Shown: piece after piece, positions 1 through 24,113 of the stretch | Position numbering within the stretch: position 1 is the stretch's first letter | How the letters are laid out: every line of letters starts with the position of its first letter | Origin: a virus | Direction: 5' to 3' (one strand) | IMG/VR virus record: IMGVR_UViG_3300035070_000558 | Span: 1 to 31,770 of that record | Length of the DNA stretch: 31,770 bases | Notes under the pieces: generated by a model | Told to the model about the DNA's origin: nothing | What the model saw: the letters and a program-made list of their open reading frames with translations, nothing else | Database searches by the model: none | Translations under genes and position numbers: made by a program

Positions 1-29
1 AGTACTTTTGTTTATATATATTATATATA

Positions 30-58
30 ATTATACATACTCCCCACTTAAATGTCAA
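30..58 (-). promoter_or_regulatory. Consensus sigma-70 promoter firing leftward
   Basis: On the minus strand the -35 is TTGACA (58-53), the spacer is exactly 17 bp (52-36), and the -10 is TATAAT (35-30). This is a full consensus match at ideal spacing. It points out of the window, so it should drive leftward genes to the left of position 1. If the genome is circular or permuted, that would be the virion gene unit whose end is at 22016. Confidence 0.8.
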
Positions 59-165
59 GTATTTTTTTTATTATTTTCATTTTGATGAGAAATCCTGTTA
101 TTTTTGTTGCATATATGGCACACCTTATATATATATACTACGCACGCACGATTTTTGTGGTGGGG

Positions 166-185
166 TGTAGACTATAGAGTCTACA
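166..185. repeat. Perfect hairpin, 8-bp stem and ATAG loop
   Basis: TGTAGACT at 166-173 pairs with AGTCTACA at 178-185 across a 4-base loop (174-177). It lies between the leftward promoter and the repeat cluster. It could be an operator or an RNA hairpin. There is no T-run on either side to make it a terminator. Confidence 0.55.
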
Positions 186-195
186 AATTATGATG

Positions 196-209
196 AACCC
201 TTAAGGGTT
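196..209. repeat. Perfect 14-bp palindrome
   Basis: AACCCTTAAGGGTT reads the same on both strands. A gap-free palindrome of this length in a control region suits binding by a dimeric protein. No regulator can be assigned to it. Confidence 0.5.
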
Positions 210-231
210 ACCTTAATCTGCACAAATTTTA

Positions 232-320
232 AGCAATCTAAGTAGATTGCCTAGTTTTTAAGCACTTGATCTGCCTAAATATTGAGCAATCTAAGTAGAT
301 TGCCTAAGAATTAAGCAGAT
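232..320. repeat. Iteron-like repeat cluster with internal hairpins
   Basis: A 22-bp sequence occurs twice without change, at 232-253 and 285-306, with a 53-bp period. Each copy contains a self-complementary core (GCAATCT, AAGT loop, AGATTGC; 233-250 and 286-303). A degenerate unit lies between them (AGCAC...GATCTGCCTA, 261-277) and an AAGCAGAT fragment follows at 313-320. Spaced repeats beside promoters resemble iterons or tandem operators. Which of these it is cannot be decided from the sequence. Confidence 0.6.
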
Positions 321-335
321 GAGGGTAGAATATTT

Positions 336-400
336 CATCTCAAGAGAGTCTTCTGAGCAAGTATTCTTGCACCAAGTAAGACTTGGAAGATGGAGGAGAT
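336..400 (+). other. Predicted RNA three-way junction
   Basis: Two adjacent hairpins can form: GCAAG/CTTGC with a TATT loop (357-370) and CCAAGT/ACTTGG with an AAG loop (372-386). Flanking TCTTC (349-353) can pair with GAAGA (386-390), or CATCT (336-340) with AGATG (388-392), closing a three-way junction. It lies upstream of the first recognised rightward promoter, so it would need transcription from elsewhere. I recognise no known ncRNA family. The fold was done by eye, without energy calculation. Confidence 0.35.
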
Positions 401-422
401 CGTTGCTGACCTTTACTATTTT

Positions 423-458
423 ACCTTAATACTTAGCTTTCTTTGAAAGCATTAAGGT
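423..458. repeat. Long bipartite stem-loop
   Basis: ACCTTAAT (423-430) pairs with ATTAAGGT (451-458), enclosing a second stem GCTTTC/GAAAGC (436-441 and 445-450) with a TTT loop. The loop core is nearly repeated in the hairpin at 1298-1338 (AGCTTTC, loop, GAAAGCATTA). It could act as a terminator on either strand, but neither side has a clear T-tract. Confidence 0.5.
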
Positions 459-538
459 TAAATAGATTAGGAAGATTTGATGAGATGTTTGAGGTTGATG
501 ATGAACCTTGAAGATGAAGATTTCTTTCAATCGAAGCC

Positions 539-567
539 TTGACATTTTGGAAAACTTAATATATATA
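539..567 (+). promoter_or_regulatory. Rightward promoter upstream of the GP88-like gene
   Basis: The -35 is TTGACA (539-544), the spacer is 17 bp, and the -10 is TATATA (562-567), with TATACT at 564-569 as an alternative. The spacer and -10 contain TTTGG...ACTTAATATATATA, which recurs near 1283-1305. An imperfect inverted repeat (TATATATACTT with AAGTAATATATATA, about 562-596) overlaps the -10 and could be an operator. Confidence 0.65.
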
Positions 568-625
568 CTTACTTGAACATAGTGAAAGTAATATATATAA
601 TAACATAACAATTTGGAGATTGATT

Positions 626-1255
626 ATGAACAAAGTTCACATTTCAAAAATGACAGGTAAACTAGAAGGTTTACAAGCCATTAGTACAAATACAATTACT
701 AACAAATTTTGTACCAAAATGAATGCATCAAAGAATGATGACGTTATATGTAAGCATTGTTATTCACACAGTATGTTGAAGACATACAGAAAGAATATGC
801 AAGATGCCTTGCAAAGAAACACAGATACTTTGAGTATCAAAGTTCTTGAATATGATAATATACCACGTATAAACCAACTCTATATGAGGTTTAATGCTCA
901 TGGTGAACTTATAAATGAGACGCACCTTGTAAATCTTGTAAAGATTTGTGTGATAAATCCTAATGTAACCTTTGCATTATGGACTAAACGCAAGGATATT
1001 GTTATCAAATACTTTGATAAGAATCGTAAACCTAAGAATTTGAAATTAATATTTAGTAACTCAATAATAAATACTATTATTGAACCACCTAAACACTTTG
1101 ATAGTACGTTTAACAACGTAGACCAAGACAATATGAAAGAAAAACAAAATTGTACTGGACAAAAATGTATTGATTGTCTATTGTGTTATACACACAACGA
1201 CACTAAACAGATTGTGGAAGCTGTTAAGATTAATGGCAGAGCAATAAATAGGTAA
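626..1255 (+). CDS. GP88-like phage protein, cysteine-rich
   Basis: This 209-residue protein resembles the phage 'gene product 88' family, whose function is not established. The N-terminus has the family-like pattern KMTGKLEGLQAIST. Two cysteine clusters stand out: C...CKHCYS near residues 29-46, and CTGQKCIDCLLCY near 177-189. The spacing suggests zinc or iron-sulfur binding, which is inference. An upstream TTG at 620 is in frame, but ATG at 626 has GGAG seven bases before it and is the better start. It is the first gene after the 539-567 promoter and is followed by a separate promoter, so it may be a single-gene early transcript. Family assignment is from pattern memory and moderately sure. 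Confidence 0.7.
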   Translation: MNKVHISKMTGKLEGLQAISTNTITNKFCTKMNASKNDDVICKHCYSHSMLKTYRKNMQDALQRNTDTLSIKVLEYDNIPRINQLYMRFNAHGELINETHLVNLVKICVINPNVTFALWTKRKDIVIKYFDKNRKPKNLKLIFSNSIINTIIEPPKHFDSTFNNVDQDNMKEKQNCTGQKCIDCLLCYTHNDTKQIVEAVKINGRAINR

Positions 1256-6319: not shown

Positions 6320-7957
6320 ATGGATAAACAATGGTTAGACAGAGGAGCATGTCCTAAGTGTGGCTCTAGTGATGGTAATGTAAACCATTCTGAAGGATAT
6401 AGCTTTTGTTTTTCTTGTAACACTAGGTTTGGAGATAATATGGAAGTAGAAAAAGTAATACCAATGAGAACAGAAAGTGTTATGAAAACTGTGGGTACAT
6501 TAGGTGCGTTGAGTGAACGTAGTATATCTAAAGAAACTGCACAGAAATATAATACTGATGTAAAAGTAAATGGCAATATGAATACACACCACATCTATAA
6601 ATACTTTGATGAAGGTGGAAATAATATTGCAAACAAAGTACGAGACGTACAAACAAAGAACATGTGGACTGAAGGTAACATGACTAATGCAGGATTGTTT
6701 GGTCAGAATATCTTTGCACCAAAGGGAAAGTATATTACTATTACTGAAGGTGAGGTAGATGCCATGTCTGCTTATGAATTACTTGGTAGTAAGTGGGCAT
6801 GTGTATCTATTAAAACTGGTGCAGGTTCTGCATTACGTGACTGTAAGAAAGCATTTGAATATCTTGATAGCTTTGATCAGATAGTTATATCATTTGATAT
6901 GGACAAGCAAGGCAGAGAAGCTGCTGAAAAAGTAGCACAACTCTTTGCTCCTAACAAATGCAAGGTCATGCATATGGAACATAAAGATGCTAACGAATAT
7001 CTCAAGATGAATAAACGTGAGCAGTTCTCAAGAGCGTGGTGGAATGCACAACCATATACTCCTGCAGGAATAATAAATCTAAAAGATTTAAAGACTTCTT
7101 TGTTTGAAGAAGAGTATTGTGAGACATGTCTATACCCTTGGCAAAAACTAAATGATAAGACATATGGTATGCGTACTGGTGAGTTAATTACATTCACATC
7201 AGGTGCAGGTATGGGTAAGAGTTCTATCATGCGTGAGTTGATGCACCATATGTTAAAGAATACAAATGATAATGTAGGTATACTTGCATTGGAAGAGAGT
7301 ACAAAGAACACAGCATTTAATATCATGTCTGTTGAAGCTAATGTTAGACTATATATCAATGAGATACGTAAGAAGTATAGCCAAGAAGAATTAGATACAT
7401 GGTTTGATAATACTATGGGTAGTGGTAGGTTCTTTGCCTTTGATCACTTTGGTTCTATATCTAATGATGAAATACTTTCAAGAGTACGCTTCATGGCACA
7501 AGCATTGGATTGTAAATGGATATTCCTTGATCACTTATCTATACTTGTATCAGGTCAGGAAGATGGAGATGAGAGAAAGTCTATTGATGTATTGATGACT
7601 AAGTTACGTTCACTAGTAGAACAAACTGGTGTTGGTTTACTATTAGTATCACATCTACGTAGACCTGCAGGTGATTCAGGACATGAGAATGGTAGAGAAG
7701 TTACTCTATCACATCTACGTGGCTCTGCATCTATTGCACATCTATCTGATGGAGTGATTGCTTTAGAAAGAAATCAACAAGCAGAAGATGATGTAGCATC
7801 TAACACTACAACCATACGTATTCTAAAGAATAGATATACTGGTGATACTGGTATAGCTACGCATCTTTATTATGATAAAGAGACTGGTCGTATGAAAGAG
7901 ATTGACAATCCATACGAAGTAGAAGATAATAGTAACGAAGAGGAGATACCATTCTAA
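6320..7957 (+). CDS. T7 gp4-like primase-helicase
   Basis: This bifunctional replication protein unwinds DNA and makes primers at the fork. At 545 residues it is close to T7 gp4 (566). A zinc ribbon (C11, C14, C30, C33) starts the primase half. The TOPRIM motifs follow (TEGEVDAM near 140; SFDMDKQGR near 190). The RecA-like helicase has Walker A GAGMGKSS (near 295-302), Walker B WIFLDHLS (near 400), and SHLRRPAG. The C-terminus is acidic and ends NEEEIPF. T7 gp4 also ends in an acidic tail with terminal Phe that contacts the polymerase. Here the tip matches the bacterial SSB tail (DDDIPF) more closely. A promoter candidate sits at 6266-6294. Confidence 0.95.
   Translation: MDKQWLDRGACPKCGSSDGNVNHSEGYSFCFSCNTRFGDNMEVEKVIPMRTESVMKTVGTLGALSERSISKETAQKYNTDVKVNGNMNTHHIYKYFDEGGNNIANKVRDVQTKNMWTEGNMTNAGLFGQNIFAPKGKYITITEGEVDAMSAYELLGSKWACVSIKTGAGSALRDCKKAFEYLDSFDQIVISFDMDKQGREAAEKVAQLFAPNKCKVMHMEHKDANEYLKMNKREQFSRAWWNAQPYTPAGIINLKDLKTSLFEEEYCETCLYPWQKLNDKTYGMRTGELITFTSGAGMGKSSIMRELMHHMLKNTNDNVGILALEESTKNTAFNIMSVEANVRLYINEIRKKYSQEELDTWFDNTMGSGRFFAFDHFGSISNDEILSRVRFMAQALDCKWIFLDHLSILVSGQEDGDERKSIDVLMTKLRSLVEQTGVGLLLVSHLRRPAGDSGHENGREVTLSHLRGSASIAHLSDGVIALERNQQAEDDVASNTTTIRILKNRYTGDTGIATHLYYDKETGRMKEIDNPYEVEDNSNEEEIPF
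7902..7930 (+). promoter_or_regulatory. Promoter inside the primase-helicase 3' end
   Basis: TTGACA (7902-7907), exactly 17 bp, GATAAT (7925-7930). It lies 27 bases before the winged-helix gene, so that gene and the polymerase can be transcribed apart from the helicase. Confidence 0.55.
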
Positions 7958-8256
7958 TGAATAAACAATTAAACCTAAATTATGAATCACATAATTATAC
8001 AGATACTAGCAGATCAGCTTGGATAAATACAAAAAATAAACTTACAAAGAGAGAACAAGTATTGAATCTACTAAAAAATAAATCATATACTAATTATGAG
8101 ATAGCAGAAGAATTAAAAATGACATTAAGTTCTGTATGTGCTAGATGTAGAGAGCTTCAGTTATTAAATTTAGTACAAGATAGTGGAAGGAGACGTGAAT
8201 CACCTTATGGTAAACAAGTTATAGTATGGGAAATTAAAAAGGAGATACCATTCTAA
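7957..8256 (+). CDS. Winged-helix DNA-binding protein (99 aa)
   Basis: Residues about 30-95 form a winged helix-turn-helix: TKREQVLNLLKNKSYTNYEI, then a recognition helix with LSSVCARCREL, then a wing (DSGRRRESPYGKQVIVWEI). Such proteins are usually transcriptional regulators or replication accessories. It starts at the previous stop (TAATG) with AGGAG nine bases upstream. Its own end (KKEIPF, then TAATG) repeats the same 19-bp DNA module found at the end of the primase-helicase gene (7941-7959 and 8240-8258). Specific role unknown. Regulation of replication genes is inferred from position. Confidence 0.75.
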   Translation: MNKQLNLNYESHNYTDTSRSAWINTKNKLTKREQVLNLLKNKSYTNYEIAEELKMTLSSVCARCRELQLLNLVQDSGRRRESPYGKQVIVWEIKKEIPF

Positions 8257-10206: not shown

Positions 10207-10715
10207 AACAATTTACTTTGTTTGATATGAAAGAAGAAGTTCTTATTGGAGAGAAAGAACATTCACAAGTTTGTTTAACTTGTAAAGAATCTTTACCTTT
10301 AAAATCTTTTAATACTAAAGGTAAATTTAAAAAAATAAATTTAAAAACTAATAAAAGATTTTCTTATTTAGATAAAGTTTGTAAGAAGTGTGATTCAATA
10401 GAAAGACAAGATAGAAAAAAAAGAGAGTACACTTATGGTAAACCACCTAAAGATTATTGTTGTCCTATTTGTGAAAGAAACGAGAAACAAATTAAAAATA
10501 ATTTAATAATGATTGATGAAGAGTATACTGTTCATGAAAGAGATTTTAAATATCCTGCATGGGTTATAGACCATGACCATGACACAGGAGCATTTCGAGG
10601 ATGGTTGTGTAGTAATTGTAACACAGGATTAGGAGCAATGGGAGATAATAAAGAAGGTCTTAAAAAAGCTATGAGATATTTAGAAGGAGATTCTAATGAT
10701 AGTAAAAGAATTTAA
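10188..10715 (+). CDS. Recombination endonuclease VII-like nuclease
   Basis: The protein resolves branched DNA such as Holliday junctions during replication, recombination and packaging. The T4 gp49-type core is clear: CCPIC and RGWLCSNCNTGLG supply the zinc cysteines, and the catalytic HNH region contains DHDHD (128-132). An extra CxxC...CxxC pair lies in the N-terminal third (CLTCKES, CKKCD). At 175 residues it is close to T4 endonuclease VII (157). It overlaps the polymerase end by 19 bases with GGAAGGTGGG upstream. It ends inside the start of the next nuclease gene. Confidence 0.9.
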   Translation: MGRDTLEQFTLFDMKEEVLIGEKEHSQVCLTCKESLPLKSFNTKGKFKKINLKTNKRFSYLDKVCKKCDSIERQDRKKREYTYGKPPKDYCCPICERNEKQIKNNLIMIDEEYTVHERDFKYPAWVIDHDHDTGAFRGWLCSNCNTGLGAMGDNKEGLKKAMRYLEGDSNDSKRI

Positions 10716-21276: not shown

Positions 21277-21608
21277 TGGAAATATTTCACGTAGCTATGC
21301 TCCTCATTTGTTTTCGTGGGGAGTGTACTACATTTGAAAGTGCACCTTACTCTAAAGATCTAAGTTTAGAGAACTGCGAAAGAATGTTATCTTATACATT
21401 CCAAACTAAAGTAGGTCCTTACTATGATGATCTCATAGATTTTGATATAGATTCTCCAGAAGATATAAAGATTGTTGATGCAAAGTGTGATGCTACAACT
21501 CGCAGAGATAGCGATTGGAAGATCACACCTCATGTAGATTCAGATCGTTTTGAAAAGAAAGAGGATGGTACTATTGAATGGAGATTAGAAAGTGATCAAG
21601 AAATATAA
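21276..21608 (+). CDS. Unknown protein with four cysteines, possibly exported (110 aa)
   Basis: The N-terminus is hydrophobic but short (MEIFHVAMLLICF), which may be a weak signal sequence without a clear cleavage site. Four cysteines (RGEC, LENC, DAKC and one in the leader) and small-domain size recall exported disulfide-containing phage proteins. The C-terminal third is charged and polar. It is joined to both neighbours by TAATG overlaps. No function known. Confidence 0.55.
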   Translation: MEIFHVAMLLICFRGECTTFESAPYSKDLSLENCERMLSYTFQTKVGPYYDDLIDFDIDSPEDIKIVDAKCDATTRRDSDWKITPHVDSDRFEKKEDGTIEWRLESDQEI

Positions 21609-22015
21609 TGGCACTTAATGATAAACAAGAGAAGTTTGCACAGGCTTATATCCTGCATAGAAATGCAACAGAAGCTGCAAAGACTGCAGGATATGCTGCT
21701 TCTTCTGCTTACAATCAAGGCTATAGAAATCTACAGAATGGAGAGATTAAAGAACGTATTGAAGAACTAGAGAATACGTTAGAGACTTCAGTAGATGTGA
21801 TAACTGAAATAGAAAAGCAGTATGAGTTTGCTAAAGCTAATGGTCATACTAATAGTGCTATCAAAGCATTAGAATTATTGTCTCGTATTAGAGGTGCTAA
21901 GAGTGAGAAAGAAGTAGATGTATCACCTGAAGGACTAGATGCTAGTATAGTAGAAACACTAAAGATACTAGGCAAAAAGAAAGTAAATGAACTTATAAAA
22001 AAATGTGGGTTCTAA
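21608..22015 (+). CDS. terS: Terminase small subunit
   Basis: TerS recognises phage DNA and recruits the large terminase for packaging. Residues 3-55 match the Terminase_2-type helix-turn-helix: LNDKQEKFAQAYILHRNATE, then AAKTAGYAASSAYNQGYRNL and IKERIEELE. This is followed by a helical oligomerisation region. At 135 residues the size is usual. It is the last gene of the rightward unit, and its TAA is directly next to the stop of the leftward unit, while the large terminase is not nearby. So it is expressed with early and middle genes rather than with the virion genes, which is unusual. Confidence 0.85.
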   Translation: MALNDKQEKFAQAYILHRNATEAAKTAGYAASSAYNQGYRNLQNGEIKERIEELENTLETSVDVITEIEKQYEFAKANGHTNSAIKALELLSRIRGAKSEKEVDVSPEGLDASIVETLKILGKKKVNELIKKCGF

Positions 22016-22594: not shown

Positions 22595-24113
22595 ATTGCT
22601 GCTGAATCATCCTTTCCATTTGTAAGTTAGATCTAACAGAGATATAATCTCCTAGAGGATCAGACATTATTACATCATTATATATTTCTTCTGCTTCATA
22701 CCATTGCATCTGTTGCATTATATCTTGTTGCTGATACTGTTGTATATCAGGACCAAGAGCAGTAACTAATGCTATGGTTGTTAGTTGTGCCACAGGATCA
22801 TACTGTGATTGTATTGTATCTAATACTTGATTAGCTTTATCTTGTTTCTTTTGTTGTTGTTTAGTAACTTCTAATTTCTTTGGTTCATTCTGATCCACCT
22901 CTTCTGATTCCATATCGCTATTCGCAACTTCCTTCTCTTGTGGTTCAGTCTCTTCTTTAGCTTCTTCTTTAATCTCTTCCATGTTATTGTCTTCAGAAAC
23001 ATCAGCGACCTCCTTTGTAGGTTCTTCGTTAGTTTCTTCTACAATTTTAACAGGCTCTTCAGTAACTTCCTCTATAACTTCTACAACAGGTTCAACTTCT
23101 ACTGATTCTTCTATAACAACCTCTTTAACTTCTTCTAATGTAGGCATTGATACTTCAACATCCATACCTATATCTTGTATCTCTTGTACAATTTCTTGAA
23201 CTTCTGTTATAACTTCTTCATATGATATAGTACCTTCATTATATTCTTCCATCATAGTACCTATAGTATCAACTTCTATTGGCATCTCTATAGCTATCTC
23301 TTCCATTGGATAGTCCATAGTAGGCATATCAAAGGTCATAACCATATCAAACTCTTCCATCATTTCATCCATTTGATATTGTTCTTCTGGTGTAGCAACA
23401 TCATATTGCTCTATTAATTCTACTGTTATCTGATCTTCCATCAATCCAGGTTGAACAATCTCTATCCATGTTTCTACTGATGTAGTTATATGATTGTAAT
23501 TAACTGTATATTCTACATTATCAAAGAAATAATTATTAGCTCCACCTACTCTTATAAATACTTTATCCAAATCTCCTGCAAAATCATACGTTCCTGCGTA
23601 TGTTGTAGGTGTTTGATTATTCTCTAATGTAATTTGTCCTGTGTCCCATTGCAGAACATTATTATTATATCCTTTTGTTTGAAAATATCCTGTGGTGTTT
23701 GCTTGTGAATGGTGCATTTGTAATTCCCAATCTAAAGCACCACCATCTGATATATGAAATTCACTTATGTCTACGTATTGATCAAATGTTGTATGTGAAG
23801 TAGACGTTCCTTTACCACATGTACCTGTACCAAAGTATGCATCACAATTAGTCATACTAGCTGAACCAATCCCTCCCCAATCTTGATCCATATCTCCCTC
23901 GTACCTACTGGTTACGACACCTGTATCTTTATGTAGTATATCACCTGTTGTTTTATGTTCAACAGTTGTAGTTGTTTCTGTTATTGTATCTATATGTCCT
24001 TCACCTAAGTGCTCAGTCTCTATCTCTTGAGTAACTGTGTCACCTTCTGGCAACATTTGTGCATTAGATAAAGAGCAACATAAGAATAATAGAGAAGATA
24101 CCAAGAGCACCTT
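22587..24113 (-). CDS. Exported protein with beta-rich N-half and acidic C-half (508 aa)
   Basis: A signal peptide is clear (MKVLLVSSLLFLCCSLSNAQ; signal peptidase I site after SNA). ATG 24113 starts exactly there, while ATG 24146 adds a lysine/leucine stretch. Residues about 60-230 look beta-rich (WGGIGSASMTNCDAYFGTG, VFIRVGGANNYFFDNVEYTV), like a carbohydrate-binding or jelly-roll domain. The second half is glutamate/valine-rich low complexity. The protein is probably periplasmic or outer-surface during infection, or virion-associated. Family unknown. It overlaps the previous gene by about 50 bases. Confidence 0.65.
   Translation of the reverse strand, partial: KVLLVSSLLFLCCSLSNAQMLPEGDTVTQEIETEHLGEGHIDTITETTTTVEHKTTGDILHKDTGVVTSRYEGDMDQDWGGIGSASMTNCDAYFGTGTCGKGTSTSHTTFDQYVDISEFHISDGGALDWELQMHHSQANTTGYFQTKGYNNNVLQWDTGQITLENNQTPTTYAGTYDFAGDLDKVFIRVGGANNYFFDNVEYTVNYNHITTSVETWIEIVQPGLMEDQITVELIEQYDVATPEEQYQMDEMMEEFDMVMTFDMPTMDYPMEEIAIEMPIEVDTIGTMMEEYNEGTISYEEVITEVQEIVQEIQDIGMDVEVSMPTLEEVKEVVIEESVEVEPVVEVIEEVTEEPVKIVEETNEEPTKEVADVSEDNNMEEIKEEAKEETEPQEKEVANSDMESEEVDQNEPKKLEVTKQQQKKQDKANQVLDTIQSQYDPVAQLTTIALVTALGPDIQQYQQQDIMQQMQWYEAEEIYNDVIMSDPLGDYISVRSNLQMERMIQQQYE

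Follow-up and report, generated by a model that had tools for sequence, protein, structure and literature searches.

The analysed DNA, here called the window, is a stretch of 31,770 bases from an IMG/VR virus record and represents a fragment of a genome. Genes are directed rightward up to position 22,015 and leftward from 22,016 to the window end, and the GC skew changes sign at this junction of the rightward and leftward genes (22,015/22,016). The window encodes a T7-like primase-helicase, polA, and a B12-type ribonucleotide reductase, and the small terminase gene (terS) is located at 21,608, 21 kb from the control region described below. The polymerase shares 46% identity with those of the pelagiphages HTVC115P and HTVC103P, which are the nearest cultured phages and infect SAR11, and the primase shares 45-49% identity with those of HTVC103P-type phages. 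At the DNA level, the cultured phages searched gave no match to the window, and Rfam and tRNA scans of the window returned nothing. Close relatives found via the first early gene reach to the left of position 1 and carry there a leftward gene for the large terminase subunit (terL). In 30 contigs obtained from a promoter pattern scan and having terL on the left, the terL start mostly lies 50-190 bp from the promoter motif. Long relatives (contigs of 45-62 kb) as well as HTVC103P and HTVC115P have two gene arms with one divergence and one convergence. In its homologous replication genes and the two-arm order, the window agrees with an HTVC103P-type phage. The leftward terL and the two-arm order in relatives identify the first 625 or so positions as the divergent region that controls early and late genes in a marine podovirus-like phage. 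A sequence-only reading had proposed a lysis/early switch at this place; the divergent early/late character holds, but the leftward arm opens with terminase and structural genes and not with a lysis gene. The region is conserved in relatives and the skew shifts there. Its features and the first gene behind it are as follows.

12-30, no strand: AT palindrome over the putative leftward start site, possibly an operator
30-58, minus strand: leftward late promoter of the terL/structural operon, -35 TTGACA at 53-58, spacer of 17 bp, -10 TATAAT at 30-35 (consensus and conservation)
36-52, no strand: promoter spacer in which CCCCAC, read leftward as GTGGGG, is conserved
104-135, plus strand: rightward promoter candidate with TTGTTG/TTGCAT and TATATA 17-18 bp apart, the spacer CATATATGGCACAC being conserved (consensus match only)
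152-166, plus strand: conserved G-rich block TTTTTGKGGTGGGGT (conservation in relatives)
166-185, no strand: palindrome with 8-bp stem; close relatives show paired changes and an inversion of the loop (comparison)
196-209, no strand: 14-bp palindrome AACCCTTAAGGGTT, paired changes in relatives (comparison)
219-235, no strand: predicted NtrC-type dyad 1, TGCACAAATTTTAAGCA, 10/12 match to the dyad consensus
248-264, no strand: predicted NtrC-type dyad 2, TGCCTAGTTTTTAAGCA, 12/12 match
272-288, no strand: predicted NtrC-type dyad 3, TGCCTAAATATTGAGCA, 11/12 match
301-317, no strand: predicted NtrC-type dyad 4, TGCCTAAGAATTAAGCA, 12/12 match
416-465, plus strand: hairpin with compensatory change, kept in close relatives, no T-tract
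539-567, plus strand: rightward early promoter TTGACA-17-TATATA, unchanged across seven related sequences
556-603, plus strand: hairpin cassette over the early promoter and the inferred mRNA start, similar copy at 1294-1342
626-1255, plus strand: first early gene, GP88-family protein (PF17338)

The perfect TTGACA-17-TATAAT leftward promoter described in the sequence-only reading was confirmed on the minus strand at 58-30, and it is the sole TTGACA-16..18-TATAAT match in the window (0.13 expected). As the set of 30 contigs had been selected by the promoter and is biased by its pattern, a second set of relatives was chosen by terL alone. In this set, TTGACA-16..18-TATAAT is present upstream of terL in 37 of 57 non-redundant relatives, compared with 0 of 57 stretches of coding DNA, and a looser pattern of TATAAT followed by TATA/ATA is found in 53 of the 57 terL upstreams and in none of the coding controls. 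By sequence, 58-30 is the predicted promoter of the terL operon and of a sigma-70 late type. Its CCCCAC spacer is swapped for other sequences in some lineages. A rightward promoter had also been proposed; TTGAAC-17-TATAAT is indeed present at 573-601 with 10/12 matches, but TTGACA-17-TATATA at 539-567 is the better candidate. The promoter at 539-567 and its start-site hairpin recur as a cassette ahead of other early genes. Within the window, this reusable cassette, consisting of a TATATATA -10 element, a start-site hairpin with a CTTTCTnTGAAAG-type loop and GGAG, stands at 539-605 and 1282-1345 before successive small early genes, and L094 and L102 contain several copies. The hairpin at 416-465 was rejected as an intrinsic terminator for its missing T-tract.

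Conservation in 15 non-redundant relatives, a set partly biased by the search pattern, covers the leftward promoter, 104-118, 125-137, the G-rich block at 152-166 and TTACCTTA at 208-215; positions 216-410 are not conserved. The unusual amount of structure that had been pointed out earlier is borne out by three GC-containing stems with 7 bp or more within the 625 bp (0.14 expected), which puts the region on top among 625-bp tiles. Both the 14-bp palindrome (196-209) and the 8-bp-stem hairpin (166-185) are present, and the repeated units of about 22 bp correspond to the palindromes 233-250 and 286-303 within a 53-bp tandem repeat (212-264/265-317, 83% identical). Control regions across the family contain 4.4 palindromes per 580 bp, whereas simulations give 0.54 and coding DNA gives 0.33; the palindrome sequences differ between lineages.

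The main finding, which had been missed before, is a repeated dyad of 17 bp. The 53-bp repeat is composed of four copies of TGCYTA-N5-TARGCA, starting at 219, 248, 272, and 301, which form two pairs (219/248 and 272/301) with a distance of 29 bp within each pair. The hairpins at 233-250 and 286-303 form where two dyads adjoin, the GCA end of the first, ATCTAAGTAGAT, and the TGC start of the second coming together, so that the formerly described repeated hairpins are mostly by-products of the four dyad copies. Three or more dyads within 110 bp were obtained in 0 of 300 simulations. In 1.7 Mb searched, the dyad centre measures 5 bp in all 28 distinct contexts, with no case at gaps of 0-4 and 6-12, and this constant centre points to a dimeric DNA-binding protein rather than to a hairpin. 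The dyad is located at the same place in L004, L006, and L103, which belong to lineages that are otherwise hard to align here. Two or more dyads occur in 6 of 40 non-redundant control regions, whereas neither the simulations nor the 39 coding controls contain such a case. Of 360 half-site permutations, those that match this level are all near-identical. Any dyad is present in just 8 of the 40 family control regions. Beyond the family, the paired dyad is found in at least 120 viral contigs. In 113 viral contigs examined, most arrays lie between predicted genes, and the neighbours include unrelated terminase families, portal proteins, and GP88. These 113 further viral loci (L228-L340) carry paired TGCCTA-N5-TARGCA arrays, several of them adjoining terminase, portal or GP88 genes. 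In G006, an array of TGCATA-N5-TATGCA-like sites is located at 23240-23440 upstream of the GP88 gene, at a displaced early divergence.

A paired-dyad scan of bacterial genomes resulted in 31 loci, 11 of which lie at nitrogen genes. Six are at ntrBC (L349, L356, L357, L361, L366, L368), in closely related PS1/OCS116-type genomes that do not count as six independent cases; the others are at amt (L370, L354), at nirB (L341, L362), and near PII/amt (L346). NCBIfam models at these loci identified NtrC, Amt, and NirB above cut-off, and the best matches of NtrB and PII were below cut-off. L343, which is flanked by an IspDF gene and by a gene interpreted as dusB/nifR3, is a possible twelfth nitrogen locus. 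Several loci in Bacteroidota and others have GC-containing centres and look like unrelated repeats. For a check independent of the site, an ammonium-transporter match served to select small alphaproteobacterial genomes. G366, G289, and G210 have NtrC above cut-off and a single exact dyad each, in all three cases at the ntrBC promoter. Upstream of ntrB, the exact dyad begins at a distance of 52-54 bp from the gene start in G366 and G289 and of 25 bp in G210; G366 has a second site (11/12) 28 bp further. Four single-contig genomes of 1.2-1.3 Mb with weak NtrC-model matches only, which are NtrX-type by score, have no exact dyad. Exceptions are G068, where NtrC is present and the only exact dyad lies elsewhere, the GC-richer G037 with NtrC and no dyad, G260 and G161 with NtrC below cut-off and no dyad, and G356 and G049 with one dyad each and no NtrC. 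At 20 alphaproteobacterial amt promoters, mostly from small genomes, no exact dyad was found, and weak pairs occur in some.

The dyad agrees in length, TGC/GCA ends, and AT-rich middle with published NtrC boxes, which have been described as the 17-bp TGCACCAnnnTGGTGCA in E. coli (PMC8743547) and as TGC-N11-GCA with an AT-rich middle at activated and repressed promoters in S. meliloti, where NtrC also represses a small-RNA promoter carrying the motif (PMC10746234). Proteobacterial NtrC-binding sites (NR(I) boxes) likewise form a 17-bp dyad with TGC...GCA ends and a fixed centre, and at ntrBC of the PS1/OCS116-type genomes the sites are paired about 28 bp apart as in the window. In contrast to NR(I) boxes, the array is located in phage DNA between early and late promoters, comprises two tandem pairs, and has no visible sigma-54 promoter; the inner bases are TA/TA in the window dyad and CC/GG in enteric NR(I) boxes. 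The array thus probably is a set of host NtrC-type sites inside the early/late control region. With moderate confidence, the whole locus can be explained as a divergent sigma-70 control region with two dyad pairs for host NtrC or a close paralogue. What can be read from the DNA directly are the conserved promoters, the gene order, the dyad with its fixed spacing, and its placement at bacterial nitrogen genes.

According to this proposal, host sigma-70 polymerase would start leftward from 58-30 and rightward from 539-567, and the two dyad pairs between these promoters would be bound cooperatively by phosphorylated NtrC, which should be plentiful in a nitrogen-starved host. Bound NtrC would then alter the balance between the terminase/structural arm and the early/replication arm. 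Binding of the protein, the sign of the regulation, and the host are what we infer here. Since no sigma-54 promoter was found near the array (the nearest match, at 701-716, has two mismatches and shows no clear excess over chance), NtrC would more likely act on the two sigma-70 promoters by repression, roadblock or looping than by classical sigma-54 activation. Some NtrC-type proteins without the GAFTGA motif act on sigma-70 promoters (PMC10274813). The fact that the array overlaps no strong promoter counts against a role of NtrC, as do the missing sigma-54 site, the amt promoters devoid of exact dyads, the position of the G068 dyad away from ntrBC, and the small share of family control regions with any dyad. 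Furthermore, the four two-component systems described for SAR11 include NtrY/NtrX and lack NtrC (PMC13198564), and if the host was such a SAR11 bacterium, NtrX or another protein would have to take the place of NtrC.

The phage may in this way read the nitrogen state of its host. More tentatively, and with somewhat less than even confidence, several marine phage lineages would carry host NtrC boxes as arrays in the region controlling early and late genes, and the nitrogen state of the host would thereby set the infection programme; the paired dyad in at least 120 viral contigs suggests that nitrogen sensing of this kind is widespread among phages whose bacterial hosts have NtrC. No description of NtrC boxes in phages was found in the literature searched, which is no proof of absence. 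Predicted NtcA and Pho boxes of cyanophages (PMC3037559) are similar in that lytic marine phages carry predicted sites for a host nutrient-stress regulator; regulator and hosts differ, and the window has a multi-site array in a single divergent control region. The phi29 switch (A2c/A2b/A3, p4, p6) is likewise a compact region with early and late host-sigma promoters and sites for regulatory proteins, but p4 and p6 are encoded by the phage (PMC3100819), whereas the likely binder in the window is a host protein. HTVC103P and HTVC115P have in common with the window the two-arm genome, a terminase beside the divergence, and TTGACA...TATAAT promoters there. In contrast to the window, terS heads their leftward arm, and they have no exact TGCNTA-N5-TANGCA but other short repeats, e.g., CTAGTTAAC. 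In HTVC115P (L126), a leftward TTGACA-17-TATAAT and a rightward TTGACA-16-TATAAT stand back to back beside terS at 10231-10320 and beyond, with three copies of CTAGTTAAC near these promoters. If NtrC control proves true, phages of abundant marine bacteria would couple infection control to nitrogen limitation via a two-component system of the host, comparable to the proposed role of NtcA in cyanophages. With the dyad as a sequence signature, nutrient-sensing phages could then be looked for in metagenomes, and, as the host should encode NtrC, the dyad would be a clue to the host of this uncultivated phage group.

Other explanations of the dyads have to be weighed against binding by host NtrC. 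Operator arrays are common near divergent phage promoters, and the dyads could be operators of a phage-encoded regulator that share half-sites with NtrC by chance, all the more as other lineages have different repeated palindromes in the same spot, such as TGAGAATAGTTCTCA and ACTACT..AGTAGT. This is unlikely, however, as neither an integrase nor an HTH_3-type repressor above cut-off was found in the window, its relatives, HTVC103P or HTVC115P, none of the compared genes tracks the array perfectly, and the dyad stands beside unrelated gene families in its viral contigs. The only winged-helix-like protein of the window (7957-8253, 99 amino acids, encoded between the primase-helicase and polymerase genes) was rejected as the dyad binder, because it has no detectable homologue in any compared relative, array carriers included. 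An immunity region of the lambda type, which resembles the locus in having a 17-bp dyad array near divergent promoters, was rejected for lack of an integrase and a CI/Cro-type repressor in the window, which is part of a genome, and in relatives of up to 62 kb. As array neighbours comprise several unrelated terminase families, portal, and GP88, a single terminase or repressor family is an unlikely explanation, and a shared host protein can account for the pattern. This also bears on the suggestion that the dyads are packaging sites (pac/cosB) read by the terminase: they adjoin terL, and several arrays in other viral contigs flank terminase or portal genes, but the adjacent terminases belong to different families (Nu1-type, Sf6-type, several TerL families), many arrays flank other genes, and terS of the window is 21 kb away. 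Contig ends are scattered across the region without a single point, by which a fixed genome end at the control region was rejected, and a packaging function is improbable. In the control regions of L195, L216, and L217, repeated TGAGAATAGTTCTCA and TGAGAATGATTCTCA palindromes occupy the place where other lineages carry the NtrC-type dyads; they are possibly sites of another regulator.

The region had further been suggested to contain an origin. In an origin of replication at this place, the AT-rich stretch (125-137) would unwind, the G-rich block (152-166) would favour an RNA-DNA hybrid, and the four dyads would serve as iterons. Each of the six genomes examined has its skew minimum close to the control region; this minimum follows gene direction, however, and thus lends no independent support to an origin. 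In G006, G007, and G008, it is located 1.9-2.4 kb to the right of the conserved motif, near the switch in gene direction, and these three have no exact dyad. The phage also has a T7-like primase-helicase and polA, which are not known to need an iteron-binding initiator. An origin is improbable. Similarly low is the probability of a structured regulatory or leader RNA, transcribed from the 104-135 promoter and extending from 142 to about 540. The window fold reaches a z of -8.3, and the palindromes 166-185 and 196-209 show 100% pairing in 10 sequences with four doubly changed pairs; in L101, L006, L099, and L115, however, the fold is no better than shuffles (z about -0.7 to -0.9), and the larger helices show little covariation. 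The three-way RNA junction proposed earlier is not the preferred structure: folded as RNA, 208-327 adopts a single long imperfect hairpin. Symmetric flips distinguish close relatives from each other, and the 166-185 loop is seen in both orientations, ACTATAGAGT and ACTCTATAGT. Since template switching between inverted repeats leads to homogenised arms and inverted spacers (PMC8604942; PMC8794818), paired changes alone are no proof of RNA, and the loop inversion among them is a signature of this process. The constant 5-bp dyad centre suits protein binding. For the palindromes behind the RNA fold, sites of protein binding, or arms equalised by template switching, are the better explanation. In favour of the suggested regulatory RNA, the L100/L101 clade has an ORF-poor rightward unit that ends in a conserved, covarying bidirectional terminator, but the case for a structured RNA across the phage family is weak.

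Two further observations concern these palindromes and this clade. At 166-185 of the window and in L003, L004, L094, and L111, phages that are otherwise near-identical differ by symmetric flips of the palindrome arms and by an inverted loop, which fits template switching between inverted repeats. In L100 and L101 (the G006-G008 clade), the bidirectional terminator with its compensatory changes is located at the equivalent of window positions 537-604 and closes the ORF-poor rightward unit; the gene past this terminator is directed leftward, and the early block is displaced by 2-4 kb.
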